A stretch of DNA of 35,896 nt from a virus: IMG/VR virus record IMGVR_UViG_3300033571_006387, positions 1 through 35,896 of that record; one strand, given 5' to 3'. Of the stretch, positions 12,298 to 34,064 are shown piece by piece. The position numbers and the translations under genes were made by a program. Positions within the stretch are counted from its first letter, which is position 1. Each line of letters begins with the position of its first letter. The notes below the pieces were generated by a model. It saw only the letters and a program-made list of their open reading frames with translations, ran no database searches and was not told the DNA's origin.

Positions 12298-12570
12298 ATG
12301 CTATATCTGACCCGGCAAATGGTCGCACTGAAGCCGCTTACATATGGGGGGCAGGAACTTCGCCCCGGCGACGTATTCGCGGCCACCGAAGTAGACGCTG
12401 GGTATTTCGCAAAGCACAAACGCGCGGCTAACCATGAAGCCGAAATCCAGGCGCCGATGATTGAGCCGGTTGCGGAATCGGTAGCCCCGGAACCCAAACT
12501 GCCGGATAATCCGCCCACGCGGCGCAGGCCAGGCCGCCCGCGTAAAGTCGAGGCACAGACACCAGAATGA
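12298..12570 (+). CDS. Small protein with AT-hook-like C-terminus
   Basis: 90 aa from ATG 12298, with GAGG seven bases upstream; GTG 12292 would add two residues. Residues 1-45 are a compact beta-rich domain (YGGQELRPGDVFAATEVDAG, then YFAKHKRA), and residues 53-90 form a Pro/Glu-rich linker ending in RRRPGRPRK. The latter matches the G-R-P core of an AT-hook. This combination between capsid and portal is seen in several phages, where the short protein is a head-associated part of unknown role; the tail could contact packaged DNA. Its stop overlaps the portal ATG. Confidence 0.75.
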   Translation: MLYLTRQMVALKPLTYGGQELRPGDVFAATEVDAGYFAKHKRAANHEAEIQAPMIEPVAESVAPEPKLPDNPPTRRRPGRPRKVEAQTPE

Positions 12571-13979
12571 GGCTTTTCGGGCTAGACATCAGCATCCGCA
12601 AAGCCGCGCCCGTGGGCACTGTGCCCGTGCGTGGCGCGGGTGTTATGGGCTGGGTCCGCGAGCCATTCGCTGGCGGCTGGCAGCAAGGCGTAACCGTAGA
12701 TCCGCTGGGATCGCTTACCAGCTTCGGTGCGGTGTACGCCTGTATCTCCCGTATTGCTGGGGATATTTCCAAGCTGGAGCCGGTGCTACTGGACACCAGC
12801 GGGCCGGTCCCCAAGCGTGCGCCGATTACCTCGCCATTCTGGCCGGCATTGCGCAGGCCGAATGACTATCAGAATCGTATCCAGTGGCTCAGTTATTGGA
12901 TCACCAGCAAGCTGACGTTCGGCAATGCCTACCATCTGAAGGTGCGAGAAACAGCGCGCGGCATGGTCAAGGGCCTAGTCCCGCTTGATCCACGCCGCAC
13001 GACGCCAATGGTCGCGCCTGACGGGTCCGTGTTCTATACGCTTTCCAGCGACGATCTAGCTGGCGTGCCGGCTGGCCTCGTGGTACCGGCGAGCGAAATC
13101 ATCCATGACCGATGCTGCACGCTTTGGCATCCGCTGGTCGGTATCTCCCCGCTGTATGCCTGCGGCCTAAGTGCCACGCAAGGCCTGCGAATCCAGGCCA
13201 ACAGCGCCACGTTTTTCAGCAACGCAAGCCGACCAAGCGGCATGCTGACGGCGCCTGGCACGATTGACGAAGTGACCGCCAAGCGACTCAAGGACAACTG
13301 GGAGGAGAATTACTCCGGCCAGAATATCGGCCGGCTGGCGATTCTTGGTGACGGCCTGAAGTATGAGGCTATGACGATTCCAGCCGAAGCCAGCCAGATG
13401 ATTGAGCAGCTGTCCTGGACCGTGGAAGACGTGGCGCGCTGCTTCTTCATGCCGCTGTACAAAATCAACTCGGGGCCGATGCCGACGAACAACAACGTCG
13501 AGGCTCTGGAAGTGCAGTATTACACCGGCTGCCTGCAGATCCTCATCGAAAGTATCGAGCTGTGCCTGCGCGAGGGGTTGGAAGTCCGCGATGGCATGAG
13601 CGTTGAGCTTGACCTTGAGGGCCTTGCACGCATGGACAGCGCGGCAAAGATTGACATGCTCGGCAAGGCCGTGGGCGGCGCGCTCATGAAGCCCGACGAA
13701 GCGCGCGGCAAGCTGCGGCTAGACCCGGTGCCCGGGGGCGACGCGGTGTATCTCCAGCAGCAGAACTACAGCCTCGCAGCCCTCGCGCGGCGCGATGCGC
13801 AAGCCGACCCGTTTGGCCGAGCGCCAGCCCCGCAGCCATCGGCGCCGCAGGACAGCAGCGACGACGAAGACACCGAAAGCCCGGACGATGACGAAGTTCC
13901 TGAGACTGCAACGCGCATGGCAGCCGACATCACGCTGAAGCTGTACCAAGAGCCCCCAGCCCTGGAGGCGATGGCATGA
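12567..13979 (+). CDS. Portal protein, HK97/SPP1 type
   Basis: 470 aa. The dodecameric ring at the unique vertex through which terminase pumps DNA and to which the tail connectors bind. Matching stretches: FGAVYACISRIAGDISKLEP, RPNDYQNRIQWLSYWITSKL with LTFGNAYHLK, IIHDRCCTLWHPLVGISPLY and the helix region VEDVARCFFMPLYKINSG, then NVEALEVQYYTGCLQILIES. The C-terminal 60 residues are Asp/Glu- and Pro-rich and probably disordered. It lies after the capsid gene, not before the protease as in HK97, so the order is altered. Both ends overlap neighbours by ATGA. Confidence 0.95.
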   Translation: MRLFGLDISIRKAAPVGTVPVRGAGVMGWVREPFAGGWQQGVTVDPLGSLTSFGAVYACISRIAGDISKLEPVLLDTSGPVPKRAPITSPFWPALRRPNDYQNRIQWLSYWITSKLTFGNAYHLKVRETARGMVKGLVPLDPRRTTPMVAPDGSVFYTLSSDDLAGVPAGLVVPASEIIHDRCCTLWHPLVGISPLYACGLSATQGLRIQANSATFFSNASRPSGMLTAPGTIDEVTAKRLKDNWEENYSGQNIGRLAILGDGLKYEAMTIPAEASQMIEQLSWTVEDVARCFFMPLYKINSGPMPTNNNVEALEVQYYTGCLQILIESIELCLREGLEVRDGMSVELDLEGLARMDSAAKIDMLGKAVGGALMKPDEARGKLRLDPVPGGDAVYLQQQNYSLAALARRDAQADPFGRAPAPQPSAPQDSSDDEDTESPDDDEVPETATRMAADITLKLYQEPPALEAMA

Positions 13980-14860
13980 ACGCCGACCAAGTGGTTACCG
14001 CCGTGCGCGATTACGTCCGCCGCAGTGTTGAGCCGTTCGTCGAGCGGTTGAAGGCGCTTGAGGAATGGCGGAAGACGCTGCCCAGCCCTGACAGCCTGCG
14101 CGGCAAGGACGGCGCACCCGGCAAAGATGGCGCACCCGGCGCTGACGGCAAGGACGCCAGCCCGGAAGCCCTGCGCGATGCTGTTGCCGAGGCGGTTGCC
14201 GCGATCCCGCGCCCCGTTGACGGCAAAGACGGCGCCCCCGGCAAGGATGGCCGCGACGGCGACCGTGGCGAGCCCGGCCAGGATGGCAAGCCCGGCGAGA
14301 AAGGCGCAGACGGCCGCGACGGGCGCGACGGCAAGGATGGCCGCGACGGCAAAGACGCCGCCGACATCATGCCTCTGCCCTCGATCGACGCCACGCGCAG
14401 CTATGCCAAAGGGACATGGGCGCAGCATGCCGGCGGCCTGTGGGTGGCCCGCCAGGCTACGCAGGGAATGGACGGCTGGGACTGCGTTGTAGTGGGCCTG
14501 CAAGCCGTGCAGATGCACGCCAGCGACGACCTGCGCACCGTCCGCATGGTCACCACGCTATCCACCGGCAAAGCCCTGGAGGCGTCCGTATCCGTACCTG
14601 CGATGCTGTATCGCGGCATCTGGAAGGACGGAGAGGACTACGCCACGGGCGATGTCACCACGCGCGACGGTAGCACCTGGGTACTTGTCGCGGATGAGCA
14701 AAAGGGCAAGCCCGGCGAGAACGATAGCGGCTGGCAGCTTTCGGTGAAGCGCGGCCAGAATGGGCGCGACGGATTGCGCGGCGAGAAGGGCGAGCGCGGC
14801 GCAGAGGGCAAAGCCGGGCGCGACCTGACGCAGATGACGCTTGACGGCAAACGGTATTGA
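13976..14860 (+). CDS. Collagen-like virion protein with sugar-binding-like modules
   Basis: 294 aa. After a short helical N-terminus (residues 1-40, possible trimerisation or head-anchoring part) come G-x-y repeats at about residues 43-60, 83-127 and 260-283 (GKDGAPGKDGAPG, GRDGRDGKDG types). The middle has a YAKGTWAQHAGGLWVAR motif and then YRGIWKDGEDYATGDV with GSTWVLV...W, which recalls the aromatic pattern of carbohydrate-binding modules of the ChtBD3/CBM5-12 type. Phage collagen-like proteins are usually fibres or tail/head appendages. Start ATG overlaps the portal stop. Placement beside the portal suggests a head or neck appendage; the binding function is inferred. Confidence 0.8.
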   Translation: MNADQVVTAVRDYVRRSVEPFVERLKALEEWRKTLPSPDSLRGKDGAPGKDGAPGADGKDASPEALRDAVAEAVAAIPRPVDGKDGAPGKDGRDGDRGEPGQDGKPGEKGADGRDGRDGKDGRDGKDAADIMPLPSIDATRSYAKGTWAQHAGGLWVARQATQGMDGWDCVVVGLQAVQMHASDDLRTVRMVTTLSTGKALEASVSVPAMLYRGIWKDGEDYATGDVTTRDGSTWVLVADEQKGKPGENDSGWQLSVKRGQNGRDGLRGEKGERGAEGKAGRDLTQMTLDGKRY

Positions 14861-15216: not shown

Positions 15217-16983
15217 ATGAGCTGGACATTCAATCCGTTCACGGGTGCGCTGGATCGGGCGCCGCTGGCTGCGGCAGCGCAGGGTGCAGCCAACACCGTG
15301 CAGCTGTCCAATGGCGCGGGGGCGTTTCTGGCGGCGACTGGGGTTACGTCGCCGGGTGCGGGTCGGCTGGCGCTGGCGGCCGGGACGGTCACGGCATCGG
15401 CCCCAATACTGGACGCCACGCAGACCTGGAACAGCAGTGGCACGACGTTCACGGGTATTGCCTACGACGTGACCGACACCGCATCGGCTGCCGGCTCGAT
15501 GTTGATGGATTTGCGGGTCGGCGGTAGTGGCAGGTTCAATGTCCGAAAAGACGGTCTGTTAACTGCCGCGTTCGCGGTGTTTTCAAATGGCGCCGGAGTA
15601 ACGATCAACTTCAACGAGCCCGGCGCGCGATTCCCAAATACCGGTGTATTGTCGTGGACAAACGGCGCCGCAACCAATCCCTCTGATCTTGCGCTTGTGC
15701 GCGACGCCGCCGGCATCCTCGCCCAGCGCAACGGCACCGCCGCGCAGGCCTTCCGCGTCTACCGGACATTCACCGACGCGAGCAATGGTGAGTGGGCGTC
15801 AATGCGGTGGAGCGGCACCACGCTCGAAATCGGAGCATTCGCAAACGGTACGGGCGCGGCGCGAGAGGTACATCTGCTAACCGGCGGAATAACGCGGCTG
15901 ACCATCCCCACGACGGGCGGGATTCTTGTGGGGGATATGGTCGTCGGGCGCGGCTTGGGGCAGGTTGATACAAACACCGCGACTGGTCGAGAAGCGCTCA
16001 TCAACAACACCACCGGCAACAGCAACACTGCTTTTGGTCGAGACGCGCTTCGGGCCAACACGACGGGCGCCAACAACACCGCCGTTGGTCGAAGCGCGCT
16101 CTCAACCAACACAGACGGCAACAATAACACTGCGGTGGGGCCATTTGCACTTTTTGCCAACAACACAGGCGTCAACAACACTGCGGTTGGCCGAAGCGCA
16201 CTTTTGGGCAACACCACGGGCTCCAATAACACCTCGATTGGACTGAACGCGCTTGCTGATAGCACCGTTGGCTTCAGCAACACGGCGGTTGGGGAAGGCG
16301 CGATCCAGGCCAGTGTTGCGGGCCTGAGCAATACAGCGTTTGGCAGAAGCGCGCTTCGCCGCATTGCAGGCAACAACAACGTCGCTGCAGGTTTCGAGGC
16401 CGGATTTAACGTGTCGCGCGGAGTCGCAACCCTCGGCTCTATCACTGGAGGGTCGGGCTACACCGACGGCACGTACAACGGCGTCACCCTGCAGAGATCC
16501 TCTGGCTCGACCTTTACCACATCGGCTACAGCAAACATCACTGTCGCTGGTGGTGCAGTTACCGCCATTTCCCTGGTAACGAGCGGCGCAGGTTTTCAGT
16601 CGACCGATACGGTTCTCACGGCAACGGCCGCCTCTATCGGAGGGACCGGAAGCGGTTTCAGTGTTCCCATTGCCACGCTTACGGGCGCAGTCAGCGACGA
16701 AAACACGCTGATTGGCTTCCGCGCCGCTAGCAACCAGACCCAAGGCAGCCGCAACATCGCCATCGGCGCCAACGCGCAACTCGACAGCCTGACCGGAAGC
16801 GACCAGATAAACATCGGCGGCCGGTATTTCCACGACCGGTTCATATACACCGAGCGTGCCGACCCGGCAGCGCCAGCGGCGGATCAGGCCGTGGTCTACG
16901 TCCGCGACAACGGCAGCGGGAAAACGCAGCTGTGCGTCCGATTCAGCAGCGGCGCAGTGCAAGTCCTCGCAACGGAGCCCTAA
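15217..16983 (+). CDS. Large repeat-containing fibre-like protein
   Basis: 588 aa, with no catalytic motif. The first 250 residues are Ala/Gly/Thr-rich beta structure (SWTFNPFTGALDRAPLAAAA start). Residues 253 to about 395 hold eight imperfect 17-residue repeats of the form N-T-A-x-G-x-x-A-L...N-T-T-G-x-N, the pattern of trimeric adhesin/fibre stalks and of phage fibres. The C-terminal part has further beta segments (SGYTDGTYNGVTLQRSSGST) and ends in DNGSGKTQLCVRFSSGAVQV. The GGAG ribosome site is nine bases from ATG 15217. It is probably a trimeric receptor-binding or head fibre, and its place in the head module is unusual. Confidence 0.75.
   Translation: MSWTFNPFTGALDRAPLAAAAQGAANTVQLSNGAGAFLAATGVTSPGAGRLALAAGTVTASAPILDATQTWNSSGTTFTGIAYDVTDTASAAGSMLMDLRVGGSGRFNVRKDGLLTAAFAVFSNGAGVTINFNEPGARFPNTGVLSWTNGAATNPSDLALVRDAAGILAQRNGTAAQAFRVYRTFTDASNGEWASMRWSGTTLEIGAFANGTGAAREVHLLTGGITRLTIPTTGGILVGDMVVGRGLGQVDTNTATGREALINNTTGNSNTAFGRDALRANTTGANNTAVGRSALSTNTDGNNNTAVGPFALFANNTGVNNTAVGRSALLGNTTGSNNTSIGLNALADSTVGFSNTAVGEGAIQASVAGLSNTAFGRSALRRIAGNNNVAAGFEAGFNVSRGVATLGSITGGSGYTDGTYNGVTLQRSSGSTFTTSATANITVAGGAVTAISLVTSGAGFQSTDTVLTATAASIGGTGSGFSVPIATLTGAVSDENTLIGFRAASNQTQGSRNIAIGANAQLDSLTGSDQINIGGRYFHDRFIYTERADPAAPAADQAVVYVRDNGSGKTQLCVRFSSGAVQVLATEP
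15973..16400 (+). repeat. 51-bp coding repeats in the fibre-like gene
   Basis: About eight tandem units of 51 bp encode the 17-residue N-T-A-x-G repeat. The codons differ between units, so the repeats are diverged at DNA level but kept in protein. Slippage or recombination among units could change fibre length. Confidence 0.75.
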
Positions 16984-16987
16984 TCCC

Positions 16988-17209
16988 ATGACCCCTACCC
17001 CCATCACCCTGACCCTGACCCCGAAGCAAGCATCGGACGCCGGCAGCCTTATCGAAGCGGCTGGCAAAGCCATCGGTGCGCAATCCTGGGCCGCGGCGCT
17101 GGAGCTGCTGACCATGCTCCAGCAGGGCATGCAGCAGGCCGCCGAGGCCGATCAGCAGCGCATCCAGGCGCTGGCAGCGAACGCCCAACCACCGGAGGCC
17201 ACGACATGA
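16988..17209 (+). CDS. Small helical phage protein
   Basis: 73 aa from ATG 16988; the longer frame from 16856 would overlap the fibre gene. The N-terminus is Thr/Pro-rich and the remainder is a single Ala/Gln/Leu-rich helix (AAALELLTMLQQGMQQAAEA), suggesting a coiled coil. Its stop overlaps the next gene by ATGA. The position right after a fibre gene suits a fibre chaperone or small structural part. Function unknown. Confidence 0.6.
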   Translation: MTPTPITLTLTPKQASDAGSLIEAAGKAIGAQSWAAALELLTMLQQGMQQAAEADQQRIQALAANAQPPEATT

Positions 17210-17652
17210 GCACCGTTTCCCTGGACATCGCGGCTTTGCCGCAGCCCGGCCCATTTGCGGATGACGCCGCGTATCTGCAGCACGTCCTGGCCACCGCGAT
17301 CTCGTCCTGGCAGCAGCAGTATTCGGGCAGCACGCGGGCCGGCGCCGTGCTGGCTGCGCGACTGGCTGCCAATGCGGCGATCGACCCCAGCAACGCGAGC
17401 GGTCAGACCGTGCCGCTGGAAGTCACCCCCCGTCAGGCCGAGCTGGCGCTGCTGGCTGCCGGGATGGACGGCGCGGTGGACGCCGCGATTGCCGCGATGC
17501 CGGCCGGGCCTGCGAAGCGGGCGGCCGAAATCACCTGGCGGCGCTCGGTGGCCGTGCAGCGGTATCACCCGATGATCGTCGCGCTGGGTCCGCAGCTGGG
17601 CCTGACCAGCGAGCAGATCGACGCGCTGTTCGTCGCGGCCAAGGGGCTGTAG
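17206..17652 (+). CDS. Phage hypothetical protein, possible fibre accessory
   Basis: 148 aa, ATGA-coupled to the previous gene. It is Ala-rich and helical: ADDAAYLQHVLATAISSWQQ, then GSTRAGAVLAARLAANAAID, and a C-terminal RSVAVQRYHPMIVALGPQLG with LTSEQIDALFVAAKGL. The ending pattern (R-x-x-P-x-x-x-x-L-x-x-x-L-G-L-T-x-E-Q-I-D) is one I recall from phage accessory proteins near tail-fibre genes. It is likely a fibre chaperone or adaptor, which is inference. Confidence 0.65.
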   Translation: MSTVSLDIAALPQPGPFADDAAYLQHVLATAISSWQQQYSGSTRAGAVLAARLAANAAIDPSNASGQTVPLEVTPRQAELALLAAGMDGAVDAAIAAMPAGPAKRAAEITWRRSVAVQRYHPMIVALGPQLGLTSEQIDALFVAAKGL

Positions 17653-18101
17653 TGCGCCTGCTGTTCGTGCGCACCGACCGCGGCCTGGTGAGCCTGGGCT
17701 CGCGGCTGATCCGCGCCTATGAGGGCGGGCTGGCCAGCCACTGCGGCGCGGTGCTTGACGACGGCAGCGTAATCGACACCACCTGGCCGCACGGCGTGCG
17801 CGTGCAGCCGCGCGACGAGTTCCTCGCCAGCCGCGAGCTGGTGGCCGAGCTGGATCTGCCAGTGCCCGACGAAGCCGCCGCACAGGCATGGATGCGCAGC
17901 CGGCTGGGCCACGGGTACGACCTGCGCGACATCCTGAGCTTCTTGCTGTGGCGCGACATCGGCAGCCGCAGCCGCTACGTATGCAGCGGGTTCCTGCTGC
18001 GCGCAGCCCTGGCCGGCGGCCTGCACGTGCGCGAGCGGCACGACCGCTGGGGCGTGCGTCACATGCTTATACTGGCTGACCGCGATATCCCCACGTCCTA
18101 G
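17652..18101 (+). CDS. Permuted NlpC/P60-like amidase domain protein
   Basis: 149 aa from GTG 17652, which shares a base with the previous stop. His 30 in ASHCGAV comes early and Cys 111 in YVCSGFLLRAALAGGL comes late, the reversed order expected of permuted papain-like folds of the YiiX/YaeF kind, which hydrolyse amide bonds in peptidoglycan-like or lipid-linked substrates. A central GHGYDLRDILSFLLWRDI helix is also typical. It is distinct from the NlpC/P60 peptidase in the tail tip. It begins the accessory block and may act on cell-wall or other amide bonds. Confidence 0.65.
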   Translation: MRLLFVRTDRGLVSLGSRLIRAYEGGLASHCGAVLDDGSVIDTTWPHGVRVQPRDEFLASRELVAELDLPVPDEAAAQAWMRSRLGHGYDLRDILSFLLWRDIGSRSRYVCSGFLLRAALAGGLHVRERHDRWGVRHMLILADRDIPTS

Positions 18102-18103
18102 CC

Positions 18104-18703
18104 ATGAGCTTTTGGCGCATCCCGCGCTGCTTTGACGGCCGCACCGTAGCCGTGCTGGCCAGCGGTCCTAGCCTGACGCGCGAGGCTGTGGAGGCCGTGC
18201 AGCACCTGCCCTGCATCGCGGTAAACAACACGCACCGCATGGCACCGTGGGCGTGGGCGCTGTATGCTGCCGACGAGGAATGGTGGTACCACGACAGCAA
18301 CGCGGATGCCCATCTATTTCCCGGCCACCGCGTCACCGTGGGCGATATCCCCGGCACACTGCGGCTGCGCAACACCGGCCGCAGCGGCTACGACACCGAT
18401 CCCTACAGCGTCCGCACGGGCGGGAACAGCGGATACCAAGCGCTGCACGTGGCGCTGCACACGGGCGCCAGCACGGTCCTGTTGCTGGGCTTCGACATGC
18501 ACGGCTGCCACTGGCACGGAAAGCATGCCTGGGGCCTGCGCGAGACTGCGCCGTCTACGTATCAGAGCTGGATCGTGGAGTTCCGCAAGCTGGCCGTGCA
18601 GCTACCCGCAGGCGTGCGCGTCATCAACTGCAGCCCGGACAGCGAGCTAGACGCATTCCCGCGTATGACGATTGCCGAGGCGCTGTGTGAAGCGTGCGCT
18701 TAA
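18104..18703 (+). CDS. DUF115/MptE-like protein of the glycan block
   Basis: 199 aa. The N-terminal VAVLASGPSLTREAVEAV is the glycine-rich G-P-S-L loop that marks DUF115-type proteins (6-hydroxymethylpterin-pyrophosphokinase-like or flagellin/capsule sugar-associated), followed by AVNNTHRMAPWAWALYAAD and a middle NSGYQALHVALHTGAS with LLLGFDMHGCHWHG. This family accompanies sugar-transfer genes in phages and flagellar-glycosylation loci and may transfer or prepare a sugar or nucleotide. No direct substrate evidence. It lies two bases after the previous stop and overlaps the next gene. Confidence 0.7.
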   Translation: MSFWRIPRCFDGRTVAVLASGPSLTREAVEAVQHLPCIAVNNTHRMAPWAWALYAADEEWWYHDSNADAHLFPGHRVTVGDIPGTLRLRNTGRSGYDTDPYSVRTGGNSGYQALHVALHTGASTVLLLGFDMHGCHWHGKHAWGLRETAPSTYQSWIVEFRKLAVQLPAGVRVINCSPDSELDAFPRMTIAEALCEACA

Positions 18704-19433
18704 CCTGCTGCGGGAAGCCCTGCCGTATCGGCGGCAAGCATTCGATGATGGTTTTAAGGCCCTGGGATATACGCTGGTAAAACGGCTGGACGACCCGCGC
18801 CCCGGCGATTGCGTCCTGGTTTGGAATCGGTACGCCGGATTCGACGAAATCGCACAGCACGCCAGCAGGCACGGCGCGGCCGTCTTGGTGGCCGAAAACA
18901 GCCCGCTGGGCGAACTGCTGCCCGGCATTTGGTACGCCCTGGCGCGCAACGACATCGCACTGTGCGGCGGTCAGTGGCAGGACCGTGGCCCTGAGCGCTG
19001 GGATAGCTGGGGCATCGGACTGGAGCCGTGGCGCGATGGTGGCGAGACGGTCATTTTCGGGCAGCGTGGCATCGGCAGGCCCGGCATCGCATGCCCCGCA
19101 GGATGGGCGGAGCGCATGCAAGAGCGCACGCGCGGGCGCATACGCGCGCACCCGGGCGGCGCACCCGCAAAACCCCTGCGCGCGGATCTAGAACGGGCTG
19201 GCGCGGCGGTGTCCTGGAACAGCGCAGCTGCTGTGCAAGCGCTCGTGTACGGCGTGCCTGTGTTCTACGGCTGCGCAGAATTCGCCATGCGTGACGCCTG
19301 CGCACCGGTCAGCACATGGCCTGCGCCGATCAAGTCCGACGAGCTACGATTAGCGGCATTCCGGCGTTTGGCCTGGGGAATCTCCCGGCTGGACGAAATC
19401 ACCAGCGGGCAGGCATTGGAGCGGCTGTTATGA
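18687..19433 (+). CDS. Capsule-polysaccharide-like glycosyltransferase (KpsS-like)
   Basis: 248 aa from GTG 18687 with GAGG upstream, overlapping the DUF115-like gene by 17 bases. The C-terminal half carries a WNSAAAVQALVYGVPVFYG motif, the N-S-x-x-A-V-x-A-L-x-x-G-V-P-V pattern that KpsS/KpsC and similar glycan enzymes show in the donor-binding domain. Other features: IFGQRGIGRPG and a Trp-rich region (WDSWGIGLEPW). It appears to be a paralogue of the protein at 21241. It probably transfers a sugar; donor and acceptor are unknown. Confidence 0.65.
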   Translation: MKRALNLLREALPYRRQAFDDGFKALGYTLVKRLDDPRPGDCVLVWNRYAGFDEIAQHASRHGAAVLVAENSPLGELLPGIWYALARNDIALCGGQWQDRGPERWDSWGIGLEPWRDGGETVIFGQRGIGRPGIACPAGWAERMQERTRGRIRAHPGGAPAKPLRADLERAGAAVSWNSAAAVQALVYGVPVFYGCAEFAMRDACAPVSTWPAPIKSDELRLAAFRRLAWGISRLDEITSGQALERLL

Positions 19434-20266
19434 GGCTACTGTTCACCGGGCGCGGCACCAGCGGAAGCTGGCAGATTCGCGGTGTGCAACTTGGCGAGGC
19501 CATGGGCGCGACCGTCGAGCCGAGAGCCCGCAGCGCCGAAGGCTACGACGCCGCGATACTGGTCAAGCGCGCAGAGCATGAGCTACTGCAGACCCTGCGC
19601 CGTGCAAAAGTGCCGATCATTTGGGACATTGTGGATAGCTGGCCGCAGCCTGACGGCAACAACTGGGGACACGCTCAGTGCATGGCCTGGCTGTCCTCCG
19701 AGCTGGCGCGCATCGCCCCGCAAGCCGTCATCGCACCGACTCGCGCAATGGCTGACGATGTTCGGCTGATCGCGCGCTCGCTGCCCGTGCTGGCGCTGCC
19801 GCATCATCACCGGCCTGGCCTCGCGCCCGTGCCTGCGCGCGAAGTGCGGACGGTCGGCTACGAGGGCGGCGAGGGCTACATCGCGGCATCGCGTGCGGCT
19901 ATCGAGGCGCAGTGCGTCAGCCGTGGCATGCGCTTCGTCGTCAACCCGCAGGACGTGACGCAATGCGACGTGCTGCTGGCTTGGCGCGATGCCGATGGCT
20001 ACGCGGTGCGCAACTGGAAAAGCAACGTCAAGTCAGCCACGGCGCATGCACTCGGCATCCCGATCATTTGCCGGCGCGAGTCGGGATACAAAGAAATGGC
20101 CTGCGGAAATGAGATTTGGGTGGACAGCGTAGAGGCCATCGGCCCGGCGCTCATCACTGCAAAGCGCATGGGCGCGCAGTCGGTGCATCGGCCGTACAGC
20201 GTGCAGGACGCAGCGCGCACACTGGCAGACTGGCTACTGCACATTTCCACACACGGCCAAGCGTAG
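19430..20266 (+). CDS. GT4-like glycosyltransferase
   Basis: 278 aa, ATGA-coupled to the previous gene. It starts MRLLFTGRGTSGSWQIRGVQ, a nucleotide-binding-like beta-strand followed by a Gly/Ser loop, and contains PIIWDIVDSWPQPDGNNWGH, VIAPTRAMADDVRLIARSLP, HHHRPGL and a C-terminal NWKSNVKSATAHALGIPII followed by RRESGYKEMA. The last stretch with K-S-x-x-K ... A-L-G-I-P is like GT4 glycosyltransferase donor-binding domains. It is likely a sugar transferase with unknown specificity. The stop is followed by a 97-bp gap, an unusual interruption. Confidence 0.65.
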   Translation: MRLLFTGRGTSGSWQIRGVQLGEAMGATVEPRARSAEGYDAAILVKRAEHELLQTLRRAKVPIIWDIVDSWPQPDGNNWGHAQCMAWLSSELARIAPQAVIAPTRAMADDVRLIARSLPVLALPHHHRPGLAPVPAREVRTVGYEGGEGYIAASRAAIEAQCVSRGMRFVVNPQDVTQCDVLLAWRDADGYAVRNWKSNVKSATAHALGIPIICRRESGYKEMACGNEIWVDSVEAIGPALITAKRMGAQSVHRPYSVQDAARTLADWLLHISTHGQA

Positions 20267-20363
20267 AGGGTACACTGTACCTGCTGCGGATAGGGGGCAC
20301 CCGACAAGCTGGACACACTCGCCAGCTTCCGCAGCTCCTCACGAGTGCTCATGGAGTGATGAG
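20267..20363. other. Gap before the low-GC inserted genes, with palindrome
   Basis: 97 bp without a gene. It contains GGTACACTGTACC at 20269-20281, perfect 6-bp arms around one base, which looks like an operator, and ends in GGAGTGATGAG, a strong ribosome site for the next gene. Its presence supports independent control of the two following genes. No clear promoter -35/-10 pair was found. Confidence 0.5.
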
Positions 20364-20627
20364 ATGATTCGCTTGTTTAGCAATGGCCCGTCATTCATAA
20401 AAGCCAACAGAGAATATGTCCAACGCGACGTGTTTGAGGAGCGGCTTGATGACGGAAGTGTGCGAATCGTAGATTTCGATTGCCTAGAAAGCGTAGTTGC
20501 ATGGGTCAAGGCCGATGCGGCAGATTTCCTAAATCGCCTAGAGACGGCGGAATGGAAGACGGCAGGCAAAAAGAATCAAGCTCCGTGGGACGCTTTGCAG
20601 CAACTCAGGCAAACGCACTGGGAGTGA
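20364..20627 (+). CDS. Unknown protein of the low-GC insertion
   Basis: 87 aa, with GGAGTGATGAG directly upstream. Polar and acidic throughout: LFSNGPSFIKANREYVQRDV, RLDDGSVRIVDFDCLESVVA, a helix VAWVKADAADFLNRLETAEW and a tail KNQAPWDALQQLRQTHWE. No recognised domain. GC content by eye is clearly lower than in the surrounding glycan genes, suggesting separate acquisition. The same 11-base leader recurs before the next gene. It may be a moron with a host-directed role; function unknown. Confidence 0.6.
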   Translation: MIRLFSNGPSFIKANREYVQRDVFEERLDDGSVRIVDFDCLESVVAWVKADAADFLNRLETAEWKTAGKKNQAPWDALQQLRQTHWE

Positions 20628-20633
20628 TGAGGC

Positions 20634-21266
20634 ATGCAATACACTGAAGGCAATCGTCCAGTTGCAGCATTTCTGCCATTTTGCCATTGCGGGCTCAGGC
20701 ACAAATCAAGCAAGGCGTTTGAGATTTGCCAGCAAAGAAAAAAAGGGCGCGAAGCAATTGAACGCAGACAAGAACAGCTTGACGCCCGCAACAACATAAT
20801 TCTTAGCAGTTTTCGAGAAGGCTTAAGCCTAAAAGATATTGGAGCCAAGTTTGGTCTAAGTGCCGAGCGAGTAAGGCAAATTGTTGCGGATGATCGCCGA
20901 AAAAAAGCACACAAAAAGAAAGAAAAACGCGACAGAGATGCGCGCATAAAAAGTTGCGCTCAATACAAAGAAAAGCACGGCAAATGGCCGACAAGGTTGT
21001 ACTACCAAAGCGCTTTTTTGTCTGACAAGTCTGTAGCAATTGAATACACAGAATCCAACGATGAACGAATGGTGCTGCTTAACGATGCCACAAGCATTGC
21101 GGATTGGATAGCTTTTGATCCAGACCAAATGGAATTGCGCGCAAGAATCATTAGTCAAATTGCCAATCCCCGCGCGCTGCAGGTTGCCATCTGGGCAATC
21201 CGCCAGCGAAGCGCCGCACTAGTCGCTGTAGGTGCGCTAAATGCTGGATTGCGAAATCCTGATTGA
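20634..21266 (+). CDS. Low-GC protein with sigma-70 region 4-like HTH
   Basis: 210 aa. Residues 63-83 read GLSLKDIGAKFGLSAERVRQ, a close copy of the sigma-70 region 4 helix-turn-helix (L-x-x-I-G-x-x-F-G-x-S-x-x-R-V-R-Q-I), followed by a basic tail DDRRKKAHKKKEKRDRDA. The N-terminus has a Cys/His spot (FCHCGLRHKSSKAFEICQQR), perhaps a small zinc site. The C-terminal third is helical and acidic with no match. A DNA-binding regulator or RNA-polymerase-binding protein is likely. The gene overlaps the next one by 26 bases, and its lower GC marks it as an insertion. Confidence 0.65.
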   Translation: MQYTEGNRPVAAFLPFCHCGLRHKSSKAFEICQQRKKGREAIERRQEQLDARNNIILSSFREGLSLKDIGAKFGLSAERVRQIVADDRRKKAHKKKEKRDRDARIKSCAQYKEKHGKWPTRLYYQSAFLSDKSVAIEYTESNDERMVLLNDATSIADWIAFDPDQMELRARIISQIANPRALQVAIWAIRQRSAALVAVGALNAGLRNPD

Positions 21267-22008
21267 CCTGCCAATGGCACGGCGTGGCAAGCAAATGCTG
21301 CAAGCCGTCGCCGACGCCACAAGCGGCAAGGTGACGCGCCACTATCACGGTCAAAAGCCGTGGCTGGTCATGTACGGCGTCGGCCTGGAGCAGCGCCAGC
21401 GCATCATGCAATACCACGTCAATCACGGCGGCCATGTCGCGGCGTGGGATCTCGGCTATTGGGACCGCGACGAAGCCATGCGGCTATCCATTGACGGCCA
21501 GCATCCGACACCCGAGATGATTGCGCGCACCCCGACCGAAGCCCGCCGCGAGTTCCAGCTGCGCGAGGACTCAGACCCAAAAGGCCCGATTCTGCTGTGC
21601 GGCATCGGCGACAAAAGCGCCGCCAGCATGAGCCTGGGCGTCGGAGATTGGGAGCGCAAGGCCCTGCGCAAGCTAAAGTCCATGCACCCGACGGCGCCGA
21701 TTCTGTGGCGTCCAAAGGGGCGCGTGGCGCGAGCATTGCCAGGCGCCCACCTTGCCCATGGCATGGCGATTGAAGACGCGCTGAAGGGCTGCAGCTTGGT
21801 CTACTGCGCGCATAGCAATGTGGCGGTTGACGCCTGCATTGCCGGCGTGCCAGTCATTTGCACCGGAGGCGCGGCGCTGGCGCTGTATGCCGACAACCCC
21901 GCGCCGACGCGGGCGCAGCGCGCGGAGTTCCTGGCCCGGCTGTCGTGGTGGAATTGGGCTTTCTCAGAGGCGGCGCAGGCCGTCGAATTTATGGAGGCAA
22001 TGGCGTGA
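21241..22008 (+). CDS. Capsule-polysaccharide-like glycosyltransferase, second copy
   Basis: 255 aa from ATG 21241, overlapping the HTH gene. The N-terminal half holds DLPMARRGKQMLQAVADATS and GVGLEQRQRIMQYHVNHGGH; the middle IDGQHPTPEMIARTPTEARR; the C-terminal DALKGCSLVYCAHSNVAVDA followed by GVPVICTGGAAL. The arrangement (C-terminal donor domain, then a helix ending in W-W-N-W) mirrors the enzyme at 18687, so the two are probably paralogues. It likely transfers a sugar; specificity is unknown. It is coupled to the methyltransferase by GTGA. Confidence 0.65.
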   Translation: MLDCEILIDLPMARRGKQMLQAVADATSGKVTRHYHGQKPWLVMYGVGLEQRQRIMQYHVNHGGHVAAWDLGYWDRDEAMRLSIDGQHPTPEMIARTPTEARREFQLREDSDPKGPILLCGIGDKSAASMSLGVGDWERKALRKLKSMHPTAPILWRPKGRVARALPGAHLAHGMAIEDALKGCSLVYCAHSNVAVDACIAGVPVICTGGAALALYADNPAPTRAQRAEFLARLSWWNWAFSEAAQAVEFMEAMA

Positions 22009-22508
22009 AGCTGAACATCGGATGCGGTGGGCGAAGAATCGACGGATACACGGGCGTCGATGCTGTGCAGCGGCCAGCGGCTGATATCGTCGCCAGGGCG
22101 GACAGTATCCCGCTGCCGGATGCTTCGGTTGAGGAAATCATGGCAATTCATCTTGTGGAGCATGTTCACCCGTGGGAAGTGCCGGCTTTGCTGCGTGAGT
22201 GGTGGCGGCTGCTGAAACCGGGCGGCAAGCTGGTGCTTGAAATGCCGGACCTCATCAAATGTTGCAGGAACGTTGTTGAAGGCCGAATGGTGGGAGGCAA
22301 GCACCCGGATCAACTGGGTCTTTGGGGCCTGTTCGGGGATGACAGAGGCCAAGACCCGTTCATGAGTCACAAATGGGCATGGACCTTTAAGACGTTATCG
22401 CCCTTGGTGGCAGCCGCAGGCTTTATTGATGCGCAGGAAAAGCCTACGCAATGGCACCCGGCTGGCCGCGATCATCGTGATTTCCGACTTGAGGCGATCA
22501 AAGCATGA
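22005..22508 (+). CDS. SAM-dependent methyltransferase of the glycan block
   Basis: 167 aa from GTG 22005, with GGAGG eight bases upstream and overlap with the previous stop. Class I fold: motif I LNIGCGGRRIDGYTGVDA binds S-adenosylmethionine; motif II/III region ADSIPLPDASVEEIMAIHLV; post-motif HVHPWEVPALLREWWRLLKP with GGKLVLEMPD. The short size and position between sugar transferases fit methylation of a sugar or another small substrate rather than DNA. There is no DPPY/NPPY motif of DNA methylases. Likely O-methylation in glycan decoration, inferred. Confidence 0.8.
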   Translation: MKLNIGCGGRRIDGYTGVDAVQRPAADIVARADSIPLPDASVEEIMAIHLVEHVHPWEVPALLREWWRLLKPGGKLVLEMPDLIKCCRNVVEGRMVGGKHPDQLGLWGLFGDDRGQDPFMSHKWAWTFKTLSPLVAAAGFIDAQEKPTQWHPAGRDHRDFRLEAIKA

Positions 22509-23164
22509 TCCGCGTCTTTACTGGCTACGACGCACGCGAGGCCATCGGCTGGCACGTCTTCGTGCATTCGCTGCTGCGCCACGCATCTCAGCCGGTAGCC
22601 GTGCATCGTGTGGACAACTGCGGGGTGCGGCACGGCACAAACGCTTTTACCTTCAGCCGCTTTCTGGTGCCGTGGCTGGCCGGTTTCCAAGGCCGCGCGA
22701 TCTTTGCGGACGCCGCAGACATGCTGTGCCAAACGGACATCGCCTTGCTTGATGCGCTATTCGACCAGTCCAAAGCCGTGCAGGTAGTGCGGCATCAGTA
22801 CCGGACACGCAACCCGCGCAAGTATCTCGGCACGTCCATGGAAGCCGACAACCTGGACTACGACCGCAAGAACTGGGCAAGCCTGATGCTCATCAACTGC
22901 GGGCATCCGGCCTGGCGCTGGTCAAGCCCCGGCGCCGTTGAGTGCATGCGGCCTCTGGCGATGCTGCAGTTTGGATTCCTGCGAGATTGCGAGATTGGCT
23001 CGCTGCCGGCCGACTGGAATGTGCTAGCCGACGAATCGCAGCCCACGGATGGGGCTAAAATACTCCACTGGACGGCCGGCATTCCGGCTTTCCAGCGCTA
23101 CGCTGACGCCCCGGGTGCAGACCTATGGCGAGCGGAGCGGGCGAGAATGGAGGCTATCCCGTGA
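22505..23164 (+). CDS. GT8-like glycosyltransferase
   Basis: 219 aa, ATGA overlap with the methyltransferase. The N-terminal IRVFTGYDAREAIGWHVFVH and FTFSRFLVPWLAGFQGRAIF are typical of a nucleotide-sugar transferase of family 8 type; the expected metal-binding acidic cluster is FADAADMLCQTDI (an Asp-x-x-Asp instead of the classic Asp-x-Asp). The C-terminal HWTAGIPAFQRY is also common in this group. It would add a sugar from a nucleotide donor. It ends the glycan block and its stop overlaps the head-tail connector gene. Confidence 0.75.
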   Translation: MIRVFTGYDAREAIGWHVFVHSLLRHASQPVAVHRVDNCGVRHGTNAFTFSRFLVPWLAGFQGRAIFADAADMLCQTDIALLDALFDQSKAVQVVRHQYRTRNPRKYLGTSMEADNLDYDRKNWASLMLINCGHPAWRWSSPGAVECMRPLAMLQFGFLRDCEIGSLPADWNVLADESQPTDGAKILHWTAGIPAFQRYADAPGADLWRAERARMEAIP

Positions 23165-23820
23165 ATCTCACCGTCATCGTCCCGCCGCCGTTTGAGCCGG
23201 TCACACTGGCCGAGGTCTACGCGCATTTGCGGCTGGACGCTGACGGCTCGCCGCTGGCGCATCCCGACGATGCCATGCTGGCGCGGCAGATTCAGACAGC
23301 CCGCGAGCACGTCGAGCTGATGACGCGCCGCGCGCTGGTGCGGCAGACCTTGCGGCTGTCGATGCGCAACCTGCCCGACACGAATGACGCGCTGCAGTAC
23401 ATGAGCACCCAGCAGCGCATGCGGGCCGTTGCGCGCGTGGAATTGCCACGGCCGCCGCTGGCGTCGGTGCAGTCGGTCAGCTACTACACGCAGTCCGGTG
23501 TGCTAACCACGATCGCCTCGTCCGCGTACTACGTCACCGATACTCAAGTGCCGGAACTGCGCTTCGTTGACGGCTACCCAGGCCTGTCAGTGCAGGACCG
23601 CCCGGACGCAATCCGGGTTGAGTACGTGGCGGGATACGCGCCCGAGGGCTCGCCGCCGCAGACCCAATCGGACTATGCTGCCAATGTCCCACGCAGTCTC
23701 AAGGACGCTATCCTCGTCGGCGTGCAGATGCTGTATGACAGCCTGACGCCGCAGGAGTATGAGCGGCTGGAGCGGCTGCGCGAGGCTCTTGTGCAGCCAT
23801 ACCGAATCCAGCACGTATGA
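23161..23820 (+). CDS. Head-tail connector protein (phiE125 gp8 / HK97 gp6-like)
   Basis: 219 aa from GTG 23161 with GGAGG seven bases upstream. The opening VIVPPPFEPVTLAEVYAHLR and the helix LARQIQTAREHVELMTRRAL, then RQTLRLSMRNLP, follow the pattern of phiE125 gp8 family connectors that join portal and tail. The C-terminal half (VPELRFVDGYPGLSVQDRPD, then a helix LKDAILVGVQMLYDSLTPQE) is also typical. It starts the head-tail joining module directly after the glycan genes. Confidence 0.85.
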   Translation: MNLTVIVPPPFEPVTLAEVYAHLRLDADGSPLAHPDDAMLARQIQTAREHVELMTRRALVRQTLRLSMRNLPDTNDALQYMSTQQRMRAVARVELPRPPLASVQSVSYYTQSGVLTTIASSAYYVTDTQVPELRFVDGYPGLSVQDRPDAIRVEYVAGYAPEGSPPQTQSDYAANVPRSLKDAILVGVQMLYDSLTPQEYERLERLREALVQPYRIQHV

Positions 23821-30095: not shown

Positions 30096-33000
30096 ATGGC
30101 TCAACTTGTCGTCAGCACCGCAGTCGCAGCCGCTACGTTTGTCGGCACGGGCGGCAATGCGTTCTTGACGCAGCTAGCCTTTGCGGGCACGTCGGCGCTG
30201 TTCGGGGCCTACAAAGCCAGCCGGCAGCGCATTGACGGCCCGAGGCTGACAGATGCCCAGGTCACCAGCGCCAGCTACGGCGAGGCGATTCCCTACGTCC
30301 TCGGATCGCGGCGCGTATCCGGGCAAGTCTGGTGGCAGAGCGAGCGCCGCGAGAATGCCACGACGACCAGCGTCGGCAAGGGCGGCGGTCCGAAGCAGAC
30401 CAGCTACACCTATGAGCGGGATTTCCTGTTCGGTCTGACCAGCAACCCCAAGGGCATGCTGACCAAGGTATGGCTAAACGGGAAATTGGTCTGGTCGATA
30501 TTGGGCGATGCCGAGACTATCGACAACAGCCAAAACACCGACCTATGGTCGCGCATCACGTTCTATAGCGGCGCGGACGACCAGCTACCTGATCCGACAT
30601 ATGAAGCCGCCGTCGGCACCGCCAATGCCCCGGCATATCGTGGTCGGTCGTCCGTGTTCATTGAGGGCATGCAGCTTGGCAATAGCGGCCAGCTTCCCAA
30701 TCTGACCTTTGAGGTGCAAGAGGTCATCGATAACGGCGTCGATATCAACTACAAAGACCTAAGCGTTAACGACGCGGTTATTCAGCGCAACAGCGGCCTG
30801 AACGATCTTGCCGAAACGACAATTGCCAAGTTTAACCAAAGCGTACCGCTTGGCATTGCTGCGCAATCGTTCGTCGCGCTGGCGAACACGCCTAGCCAGT
30901 TTGAAGGCTTGGCGGCAATGACCGCAGAATGCTGGATGTATCGCACCAGCACGAACAACGATGAATCAATGCTGGCGGTGCGCAATACTTCTGGCCCGCA
31001 AATCGGCTGGAGTTTGCGCATTCAAAACGGCAAATTGTTGGCGCAGATTCTGCGGGCTGGGCAATTCCCAGTAACGCCGCAGCATCCGACGATCAACACT
31101 TTTCCAAATAATCAATGGGTGCATTGCAGGCTGCGAATCGATTCGACTGGCACATATCTGGATCAAGATGGCGTCACGGTAGACAGCCTGCCAAGTACGG
31201 CGATGCCAGATATTCCACCAACGGCTCCGCTTTCGATTGGAGGAGGAGGCGGCGCGTCCGTACCGAATGGGTTTATCGACGAAATCCGCATCAGCAACAT
31301 TGCGCGCACCGGACCTGCGCCGACATCACGTTTTGAGCCGGACGCGAACACGGTCTTCCTCTGGCGCTGCGATGCGCTGCCGGATATCCAGCCCACTACC
31401 ACGACCGTCCGCGCGTCCGTAGAGGCGCTCTGCGCGCGTGCGGGCATGCCTGGAGATACGTATGACGCTAGCGCCCTTAGCGCCATCATGCAGCCCGTGC
31501 GCAGCGTCATCATCGGCCAGCCTGGAGCCACGCGCGCTACGCTGGAGCAACTGCAGGCCGTCTACTTTTTCGAGAGCACGCTGTCAGACAAGCTGTATTT
31601 CCGGCCGCGCGCGACCGCGCCGGTAGCCGTGCTGCCGCGCGATGAGCTGGGCGCGGGCAACGATGCGCCGCAAGACGACGCATTCCCGATCACCGTTGAA
31701 TCCGACATTGAGCTGCCGCCCCAAGTGGTGGTCCGCTACGCAAACGTATCGGACGATTATCAGGTCGGCACCGAATACAGCGACCGGCTTATCAGCGGCC
31801 AAGTGGCGCAGACGACGGTAGACCTTGCCATCGGCCTAGAGCCAGCGGAGGCCAAAGCCGTAGCCGACAAGACCCTGATGGATGGCCTGGCGGGCTTGCT
31901 CAAAAGCCGCGTAACCGTGCCGATGCGCTACAGCGCTATCGAACCCGGCGACATCGTGCAAATCATCGACGATGACGCGCGCAGCTACCGCATGCGGGTG
32001 GGCTCCAAGACCGACAGCATGGGCCTGCTGACGTGGGATGTCATTGGCGATGACGATGGCGCTTTGCTGTCCCAGGCCATCACTGACGAGGGCTATACAC
32101 CGCCTGCGGACGTGACGAGGGCCAGCTCCACCCAAATCCGCGCGCTAGACATTCCTCTACTGCGTGACTCTGACGACGGCCCTGGGTACTACGTGGCAGT
32201 CAAGCCAACTGGCTCTGTGTGGCCTGGGTGTCAAGTGTTCAGCAGCACTGACGGCGTGGAATACACGACCGGAGCAACGATTGGCGACTCTGCGGTTTTT
32301 GGCACTACAGCTAGTGCATTGCAGAATTTCCTCGGTGGCTCCGTCATGGATGAGGTGTCCAGCGTGACGGTATCGGTCGGCTTAGGCGAGCTGTCCAGCA
32401 CGACATATGACCATTTGCTGGCCGATGAAACGATCAACGCAATGTTGATCGGCGATGAGATCATCCGATTTATCAACGCCACCTTGGTTTCAGGCCCTGG
32501 CAATACGTACAGGCTGACGAGGCTGCTGCGTGGTCAAAAGGGCACCGAATGGGCAATCGCCGGGCACAGCATTGGCGAGCGCGCAGTATTGTTGCGTCCG
32601 CAGGGGCTGCGTAAAATCGCGCAACAGCAAACGGAAATTGACGCGCTTCGTTATCTCAAAGCGGTTACTAATGGGCAAACGCTAAGTAGCGCAACCGAGC
32701 TGCAATTTACGAATACCGGAGTTAACCAGCGCCCACTAAGCCCAGCAAACGTCACGGCCAACGTACAAACTGGCGGCAGGATTGACGTAACTTGGGCGCG
32801 CAGGTCGCGGCTGTCGGCGGTGTTTTTGGCATCGTCTGGATTGCCAATCGGCGAGGCATCCGAAGCTTACGAAGTGGAGATAGTAAACGCCTCTACCGAT
32901 GACGTGGTGCGCGTGGTGCCAGTTGTCAATCAATCGCGGTTTGTATATCTAACGTCCCAACAAAGTGCAGATGGCTTTTCTTCGGGGTCATCAATTCGAT

Positions 33001-34064
33001 TTAACGTGTACCAGATAAGTGCGACGGTGGGGCGTGGCATACCAGGCGTAACGCAAGTGACGGCAACTTTTGTGGCGCAACCACAAATCACCGATTTTGA
33101 GTTGCTGGGCGCGTTTTTGACAGGGACCGTAATCACACTTCAAATTGTTTCGGCAACATCGTCGCAAACGGTCACGTATACGACGATTTCAGGCGATGCG
33201 ACGTTAGCGGGCGTTGCTACCAAGCTGGCATTGCAAATTGGCGCAGTGTCTGGATATAGCGCAACGGCAACCGGCGCCGTTGTCCGCGTGACCGGTCCAA
33301 ACTCGGTGCCGTATTCCATACGCCCGCAGTTTGAACTTGTCCAAAACGGCGGTATTCAAATAGAACGAGTGCAAGCCGCAAGCCCAGAGGTGGCTGAAAG
33401 CGTTGACGAACTGTATCGTTTGGGATGGTCTCCTGCGCCGTTTATACCGTACACGGCGACGGATAAAATGTCATTGAGAATACAGCGTGTCAACGATGTT
33501 ATTTTTGAGGAAGTTGTCAATGTTGGCAGCGGTTTTAACACACCCGAACTAGTAGCGCTGGCAATATCCAGCGGCGTTAATGCTAGTCCAGCCATGCAAG
33601 TGCTTAACATAAAAGCATTTGTCAGCGATTTGTATCCAAGACTCATTGAACTTAGCATTCCTGCAGAATTGGGCGACACCTTTTCGGTGTTTCGCATTAG
33701 CACTAATCCTGGGATTATTAACTATCGCGCTGAGCCGGATGTGCGAGCACAACTTGCAGGGCCAGCGAGGCCGCAAATTAGCAAGGCCACGGTGCCGTCT
33801 GTTATTACGGCCGGCGATACATACACGATTGTTGCAAAGCTAAACGATCCGGCGTTTTATGTAGCGATTGGAGGCGATACAGCTACGACAATTGCCACAG
33901 AGCTTGCATCGCTAATAGATGCCGATGCCGATTTTATCGCCACCAGCAGCGGAGCCGAAATCACGGTAACGCACGCCTCCAACAATGTGCCGTTTACACT
34001 TAGCTCGTCGGTAACACGCGGCCCGATTCTGTTTTTCCCGGTCACTATTCAGGAGGCAATCTAA
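30096..34064 (+). CDS. Large tail hub/tip attachment protein (J-like)
   Basis: 1322 aa. N-terminal Ala-rich stretch and then ASYGEAIPYVLGSRRVSGQV with WWQSERRE begins the hub domain. A LamG/concanavalin-like insert lies at about residues 255-400 (ECWMYRTSTNNDESMLAVRN; QIGWSLRIQNGKLLAQIL; GFIDEIRISNIA). The hub core resumes with ASVEALCARAGMPGDTYDAS and continues through LPPQVVVRYANVSDDYQVGT, typical of phage tail protein hub domains (PF13550-type). The C-terminal 450 residues, coded by lower-GC DNA, have fibronectin-like and beta-strand repeats and probably bind the receptor. It closes the tail and starts infection. Confidence 0.88.
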   Translation: MAQLVVSTAVAAATFVGTGGNAFLTQLAFAGTSALFGAYKASRQRIDGPRLTDAQVTSASYGEAIPYVLGSRRVSGQVWWQSERRENATTTSVGKGGGPKQTSYTYERDFLFGLTSNPKGMLTKVWLNGKLVWSILGDAETIDNSQNTDLWSRITFYSGADDQLPDPTYEAAVGTANAPAYRGRSSVFIEGMQLGNSGQLPNLTFEVQEVIDNGVDINYKDLSVNDAVIQRNSGLNDLAETTIAKFNQSVPLGIAAQSFVALANTPSQFEGLAAMTAECWMYRTSTNNDESMLAVRNTSGPQIGWSLRIQNGKLLAQILRAGQFPVTPQHPTINTFPNNQWVHCRLRIDSTGTYLDQDGVTVDSLPSTAMPDIPPTAPLSIGGGGGASVPNGFIDEIRISNIARTGPAPTSRFEPDANTVFLWRCDALPDIQPTTTTVRASVEALCARAGMPGDTYDASALSAIMQPVRSVIIGQPGATRATLEQLQAVYFFESTLSDKLYFRPRATAPVAVLPRDELGAGNDAPQDDAFPITVESDIELPPQVVVRYANVSDDYQVGTEYSDRLISGQVAQTTVDLAIGLEPAEAKAVADKTLMDGLAGLLKSRVTVPMRYSAIEPGDIVQIIDDDARSYRMRVGSKTDSMGLLTWDVIGDDDGALLSQAITDEGYTPPADVTRASSTQIRALDIPLLRDSDDGPGYYVAVKPTGSVWPGCQVFSSTDGVEYTTGATIGDSAVFGTTASALQNFLGGSVMDEVSSVTVSVGLGELSSTTYDHLLADETINAMLIGDEIIRFINATLVSGPGNTYRLTRLLRGQKGTEWAIAGHSIGERAVLLRPQGLRKIAQQQTEIDALRYLKAVTNGQTLSSATELQFTNTGVNQRPLSPANVTANVQTGGRIDVTWARRSRLSAVFLASSGLPIGEASEAYEVEIVNASTDDVVRVVPVVNQSRFVYLTSQQSADGFSSGSSIRFNVYQISATVGRGIPGVTQVTATFVAQPQITDFELLGAFLTGTVITLQIVSATSSQTVTYTTISGDATLAGVATKLALQIGAVSGYSATATGAVVRVTGPNSVPYSIRPQFELVQNGGIQIERVQAASPEVAESVDELYRLGWSPAPFIPYTATDKMSLRIQRVNDVIFEEVVNVGSGFNTPELVALAISSGVNASPAMQVLNIKAFVSDLYPRLIELSIPAELGDTFSVFRISTNPGIINYRAEPDVRAQLAGPARPQISKATVPSVITAGDTYTIVAKLNDPAFYVAIGGDTATTIATELASLIDADADFIATSSGAEITVTHASNNVPFTLSSSVTRGPILFFPVTIQEAI

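Follow-up and report, generated by a model that had tools for sequence, protein, structure and literature searches.

Glycosylation of phage virions has been shown in few phages, mostly mycobacteriophages, in which it protects the particles from antibodies (PMC12363180). Virion proteins of Che8, Corndog and Myrna are glycosylated (PMC12363180). In Corndog, the genes gp35-gp38 encode a methyltransferase (MT), two glycosyltransferases (GTs) and an N-acetylglucosamine (GlcNAc)-transferase-like protein and are located between portal and protease (PMC4351075). A cassette of GT-like genes is described here in the viral record IMGVR_UViG_3300033571_006387, of which the whole stretch of 35,896 nucleotides was analysed (the window). 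Comparison of related loci redraws the boundaries of the cassette, and the conserved unit is DUF115-GT1-GT2-GT3-MT-GT8. It is reasonably probable that these genes constitute a portable pathway of soluble enzymes which assembles a glycan on a virion protein while the particle is built. The literature searched, a limited open-access set, holds no description of the cassette, its gene order or its operon relocation; virion glycosylation by phage enzymes is itself already known.

Cluster O phages (Corndog, Firecracker) also carry an MT and several GTs in the virion operon beside portal and head genes, and virion proteins of Corndog are reported to be glycosylated (PMC4351075, PMC12363180). However, the MT and GT proteins of Firecracker, taken as Corndog's relative for the homology comparison, are not homologous to the cassette families (best hidden Markov model (HMM) E 0.04), include no DUF115 match and belong to other families (TylF, GT2-like, GT25). 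The likeness between the cassette and cluster O is one of organisation, not descent, and probably extends to function. In the Pseudomonas phages D3 and PAJU2 (orf7/gp10 'alpha-2,3-sialyltransferase', orf12/gp11 and the MT orf13/gp12) a homologous DUF115 gene is located in the head-tail connector region, and PAJU2 has the order Hc1-DUF115-gp11-MT-gp13 with a homologue of the collagen-like gene COLL upstream, but neither phage has a match to GT1, GT2, GT3 or GT8. The Caulobacter Bertelyviruses (CcrSC and relatives) contain a DUF115-GT1-GT1′-GT8-MT cluster in which GT1′ is GT1-like. These are giant unrelated phages whose cluster follows the tail fibre genes; they have no GT2 match and their MT is annotated as FkbM family.

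GT2 served as the bait for family comparison in a collection of viral contigs, a sampling to be kept in mind when linkage is judged. Single-sequence scans of IMG/VR with GT1, GT2 and GT3 returned nothing; a GT2 profile search from alignment A1 later gave matches at 71 viral loci and in two bacterial genomes. Merging of overlapping contigs left 66 deduplicated GT2 contigs, the window included, and every window protein was turned into an HMM that was searched against all open reading frames (ORFs) of the GT2-bearing loci. The exact run DUF115-GT1-GT2-GT3-MT-GT8 is found in 30 of the 66, while in most of the remaining contigs the cassette is truncated at a contig end, DUF115 lies on the opposite side or MT and GT3 are swapped. 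DUF115 is present in 35 of the 36 full cassettes having both flanks. The swapped variant (L083, L095 and L097) is accompanied by a second DUF115 gene following the adaptor gene Ad1, and in L084 the genes GT2, GT3, MT and GT8 are each split into several frames, through decay of this copy or sequencing errors. Among annotated phages, neither a DNA-level search with the block nor tblastn with GT2 and GT3 gave a match. Among bacterial genomes (301 of Comamonadaceae, 398 of Pseudomonadota) GT2 was detected only twice, in the Variovorax JS1663 prophage (L036), which has the full cassette, and in a Ramlibacter chromosomal island that lacks it.

In the window the block stands among overlapping head and tail genes that follow one another on the + strand: TerL, protease, major capsid protein (MCP), portal, COLL and fibre precede it, and Ad1, then Hc1 and Neck, and the tail genes stand downstream. 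The features are as follows.

18104-18703, + strand: DUF115/GT42-like protein, cassette gene 1, candidate priming glycosyltransferase (phrog_4603 E 1.1e-40)
18672-19433, + strand: GT1, compact GT-B protein with a predicted beta-Kdo-transferase (KpsC/WbbB) fold (AlphaFold2 model, Foldseek, VIA)
19430-20266, + strand: GT2, GT4-type glycosyltransferase (relatives match Glyco_trans_1_2 and Glyco_trans_4_4)
20364-20627 and 20634-21266, + strand: two low-GC ORFs (87 and 210 residues) inside the cassette, set apart by third-position GC content (GC3) and absent from related loci
21241-22008, + strand: GT3, divergent GT1 paralogue (hhalign to GT1)
22005-22508, + strand: MT, class I S-adenosylmethionine (SAM) methyltransferase with a GTG start (PF08241)
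22505-23164, + strand: GT8-like GT-A glycosyltransferase with an invariant DxxD (invariant residues, WbbM match)
12567-13979, + strand: portal, upstream of the block
13976-14860, + strand: COLL, collagen-like with a conserved C-terminal domain, left flank (phrog_1289, phrog_2271 and PF01391 matches)
15217-16983, + strand: fibre, upstream of the block
17206-17652: gene preceding the NlpC-like gene
17652-18101, + strand: permuted NlpC/P60-like protein, a cassette neighbour and non-member (phrog_1128 E 1.5e-15)
23125-23820, + strand: head-tail adaptor Ad1, right flank (phrog_442 E 3.9e-18)

The original prediction, made from the DNA letters alone, had placed four GT-like proteins, a DUF115-like protein, a SAM methyltransferase and an NlpC/P60-like protein between the portal/fibre genes and the head-tail connector genes, and all are present on the + strand. 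Its six-gene core holds, but its outline does not: HMM scans of the other cassette-bearing loci gave no relative of the NlpC/P60-like gene, the gene at 17206-17652, the fibre gene or the ORFs at 20364-21266. The NlpC/P60-like protein is rejected as a cassette member on this ground, and the interruption by the two ORFs had been overlooked. The predicted coupling by overlaps is borne out, with overlaps mostly of 1-4 or 26-40 bases; an alternative GTG start of Ad1 at 23161 would give a 4-base overlap with the GT8 gene. A promoter scan of the block region found none, which is weak evidence as host promoters may differ. None of the block proteins has a convincing transmembrane helix; the 19-residue mean peaks at 1.80, in GT3.

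The position of the unit varies within the morphogenesis operon. In contigs flanked on both sides it is inserted at Hc1|Neck (18), at COLL|Ad1 (11) or between the major tail protein (MTP) and tape measure protein (TMP) genes (4). The site label requires at least 15 changes on the GT2 tree, compared with a shuffled mean of 25.6; if only well-supported branches are counted, the Hc1|Neck label still has to change 6 times. These repeated site changes indicate that the unit has moved several times while staying inside the operon. Divergence was compared in the 21 contigs that contain the complete set of genes. It correlates far more closely between GT2 and GT3 (r 0.84) than between GT2 and MCP or portal (r 0.32). 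This covariation is only suggestive because adjacent genes hitchhike.

The DUF115 protein yields a confident AlphaFold2 model (pLDDT 96) that is matched in the VIA comparison by MptE HPPK (Z 11.5), Cst-I (Z 11.0, 175 aligned, 3.9 A) and Cst-II (Z 10.9), though not significantly by Foldseek alone. Maf flagellin glycosyltransferases carry a PF01973 domain with resemblance to Cst-II and O-glycosylate flagellin before its assembly, and one of them is able to use 3-deoxy-D-manno-octulosonic acid (Kdo) as well as N-acetylneuraminic acid (Neu5Ac) (PMC11339370). The phage protein shares the predicted fold of Maf and the GT42 enzymes Cst-I/II but is a single 199-residue domain and scores 20.6 bits against PF01973, under the gathering cut-off of 34.6. 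H136 and H141, invariant in 21 of 21 DUF115 sequences, are candidates for an equivalent of the catalytic His of Cst-II. Sequence profile searches of the PDB with DUF115, GT1 and GT2 gave nothing informative, and a search for the CST-I family in Comamonadaceae had no match, its controls being unmatched too.

The GT1 model (pLDDT 96) resembles KpsC (GT107) and WbbB (GT99), with a Foldseek E of 1e-4 (probability 1.00) and VIA Z scores of 11-12 (top 12.3), compared with at most 6.8 for other GT-B enzymes. Structure prediction for DUF115 and GT1 thus gives folds near glycosyltransferases, that of DUF115 being equally near the kinase MptE. GT1 relatives match DUF6716 'putative glycosyltransferase' and, weakly, Capsule_synth (Pfam). 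In KpsC and WbbB, Kdo becomes covalently attached to the Asp of a QxxxD motif, while a Glu serves as base and the His of the HP motif protonates the leaving group (PMC9587256, PMC10148158). GT1 is much shorter than these enzymes. It retains the HP motif (H160-P161) in 38 of 38 sequences, but the position expected for QxxxD, assigned by eye from KpsC-like sequences and not by full profile alignment, reads Q131-R-G-I-G135, with Gly in 38 of 38. Ser184 is invariant, as is E75 in an ENGYLG sequence reminiscent of the KpsC-like E-x-G-[FY]-L-R motif. GT1 is better not classed as a retaining Kdo transferase, given QRGIG in place of the QxxxD nucleophile; as the HP motif is kept and the nucleophile Asp is missing, the chemistry is likely to be inverting or otherwise altered. 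Only 32 columns align between GT1 and KpsC-like proteins by hhalign, so that the Kdo-type link rests on structure. GT3 is homologous to GT1 (hhalign probability 99.1, E 1.4e-18) and matches the KpsC-like family weakly.

Taken alone, none of the four GTs of the window reaches a curated cut-off. GT2 relatives match Glyco_trans_1_2 in 20 of 40 cases and Glyco_trans_4_4 in 8 of 40 (Pfam). The GT8 protein scores 11.5 bits against PF01501 (cut-off 24.3), with 12 of 39 relatives matching (best E 2.3e-4); D69, D72, H188 and K106 are invariant in 39 of 39, D69 and D72 being the metal-binding Asp pair, and its best PDB match is the O-antigen enzyme WbbM (E 0.002). The GT calls, made by eye in the original prediction, are upheld by the Pfam matches of relatives, the GT1-GT3 homology and the match of the GT1 model to KpsC/WbbB. 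The MT exceeds the PF08241 cut-off (36.5 against 21.2 bits) and matches an oligosaccharide methyltransferase weakly (E 1.6e-5, far below cut-off), and it may add an O-methyl cap to a sugar.

From the gene identities, the two predicted folds, the linkage and the relocation we infer a substrate, donors, an order of action and an acceptor. The DUF115/GT42-like enzyme would act in the cytosol and link the first sugar to a Ser/Thr residue of a virion protein, like the homologous Maf domain on flagellin. GT1, GT3, GT2 and GT8 would extend the glycan from activated sugars made by the host, and the MT would cap it. The enzyme clues favour such a cytosolic pathway with host-made donors; a link to cytidine monophosphate (CMP)-sugars is suggested by fold only. 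A narrower proposal, which we hold tentatively and with some doubt, is a mobile virion-glycosylation pathway of proteobacterial phages built on folds of the CMP-sugar (sialic acid/Kdo) type, with GT1 as a non-retaining offshoot of the beta-Kdo-transferases that has no nucleophile. Virions would then carry an ulosonic-acid-containing, possibly methylated glycan from the host CMP-Kdo pool.

Virion decoration, proposed in the original prediction, is still the best-supported reading given the placement in the morphogenesis operon, the lack of a clear membrane helix and the example of Corndog, but the adjacent collagen-like and fibre proteins that it named as candidate acceptors find no support. 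The Gly-X-Y tract of the window has 0 Ser/Thr in 69 residues (about 3.7% in the family), the fibre is private to the window, and L083 and L095 have a whole cassette and no detected collagen-like gene, so that both proteins are rejected as general acceptors. The fibre consists of NNTAVGxxAL-type repeats and has 17 N-x-S/T sequons compared with a shuffled mean of 9.6; these are rejected as proof of glycosylation since the repeats themselves generate sequons. A structural protein that is abundant and widely shared is the most likely acceptor, in preference to the fibre or collagen repeats, and our best guess would be the major capsid or tail tube protein, the acceptors reported in mycobacteriophages.

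In the main rival reading, the soluble GTs would instead act at the inner membrane and add sugars to the lipopolysaccharide core or to precursors of O-antigen or capsule, altering receptors or excluding other phages. KpsC and WbbB, the closest structural relatives of GT1, work on capsule and O-antigen, WbbM is an O-antigen enzyme, and GT2 relatives occur in chromosomal and plasmid islands with other glycan genes. Such modification of the host envelope is nevertheless rather unlikely, as the block encodes neither a flippase nor a bactoprenol-linked GT nor a clear membrane protein and the unit occupies several positions of the late structural operon, whereas conversion genes acting in lysogens are usually expressed separately from late genes. 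Moreover, in phages without the rest of the cassette, DUF115 alone adjoins the connector genes. A virion acceptor is favoured because of the persistence in the late operon, the lack of lipid-carrier functions and the Corndog precedent. Glycosylation of the phage DNA, as in T4, deserves almost no weight: DNA is a known substrate of soluble glycosyltransferases encoded by phages, but the upstream genes scanned (part of the early genes) include no base-modifying enzyme, their matches being to replication, recombination and HNH proteins.

The cassette could also combine two functions, with DUF115 as an older head-linked enzyme (single-sugar transfer or pyrophosphokinase-like) and GT1-GT8 as a separate pathway travelling alongside. 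DUF115 is far more widely spread than the other cassette genes, occurring in D3, PAJU2, P1 (pmgO, with pmgP a relative), Tetraselmis virus S20, Caulobacter phages and many contigs, and in D3, P1 and many of these contigs it is found without them. In L010, L036 and L072 it is located at COLL|Ad1 while GT1-GT8 is at MTP|TMP. Its divergence tracks that of Hc1 (r 0.80) and the tail genes more than that of GT2 (r 0.65), which is likewise only suggestive, and its fold ties with MptE. The near-constant presence of DUF115 in full cassettes and the linkage of DUF115 to GT1 and GT8 in the unrelated CcrSC genome make this division of labour improbable.

Several points weigh against decoration of the virion itself. 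A virion glycan in these phages is deduced from genes alone, and the late-operon location is evidence of timing, not of target. The DUF115 model matches the pterin kinase MptE as well as Cst-I/II, and GT1 lacks the catalytic Asp of its KpsC/WbbB relatives, so that its own chemistry is putative. GT2 is not confined to phages: homologues lie among glycan and other genes on a Ramlibacter chromosome (L037) and the Diaphorobacter plasmid pDCB2 (L125) and are a possible cellular source of the phage gene. The DUF115 relative pmgO of P1 is dispensable for plaquing (PMC10695390), so that infectious particles form in the laboratory without it, whatever its role. This dispensability fits decoration over an assembly factor and is no evidence for glycosylation. 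If virion decoration is true, it would suggest that particle glycosylation arose more than once, given a non-homologous cassette in many proteobacterial phages and a DUF115 relative in D3, PAJU2 and P1. The long-unexplained 'sialyltransferase' and Pmg genes would become directly testable, and the cassette enzymes could serve as compact protein glycosylation tools.

Further observations concern the neighbourhood of these genes. The pDCB2 GT2 lies in an island with an ELM1-type GT, non-ribosomal peptide synthetase (NRPS)-like and sugar genes. The two ORFs inside the cassette have GC3 values of 0.545 and 0.422, compared with 0.62-0.90 in the surroundings, and look like a late arrival splitting the cassette. 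GT2 and GT3 are adjacent in 64 pairs with a spacing of at most 649 bases, and 974 bases separate them in the window. The 210-residue protein contains a sigma-70 region 4-like helix-turn-helix (PF04545 E 4.1e-7) and has no match in annotated phages. Within the low-GC insertion (20267-21266) an exact 11-base repeat, GGAGTGATGAG, is located before each ORF (20353, 20621). COLL residues ~123-262 match the extreme C-terminal end of long portal families (phrog_2271 positions 718-856, phrog_1289), with a weak CBM5/12 match, which suggests that the COLL C-terminus is a split or fused portal extension. Further downstream, 30096-34064 encodes a long tail-tip protein that has a gene transfer agent (GTA)-type tail domain and, internally at residues 260-405, a concanavalin-like (Laminin_G_3) domain.

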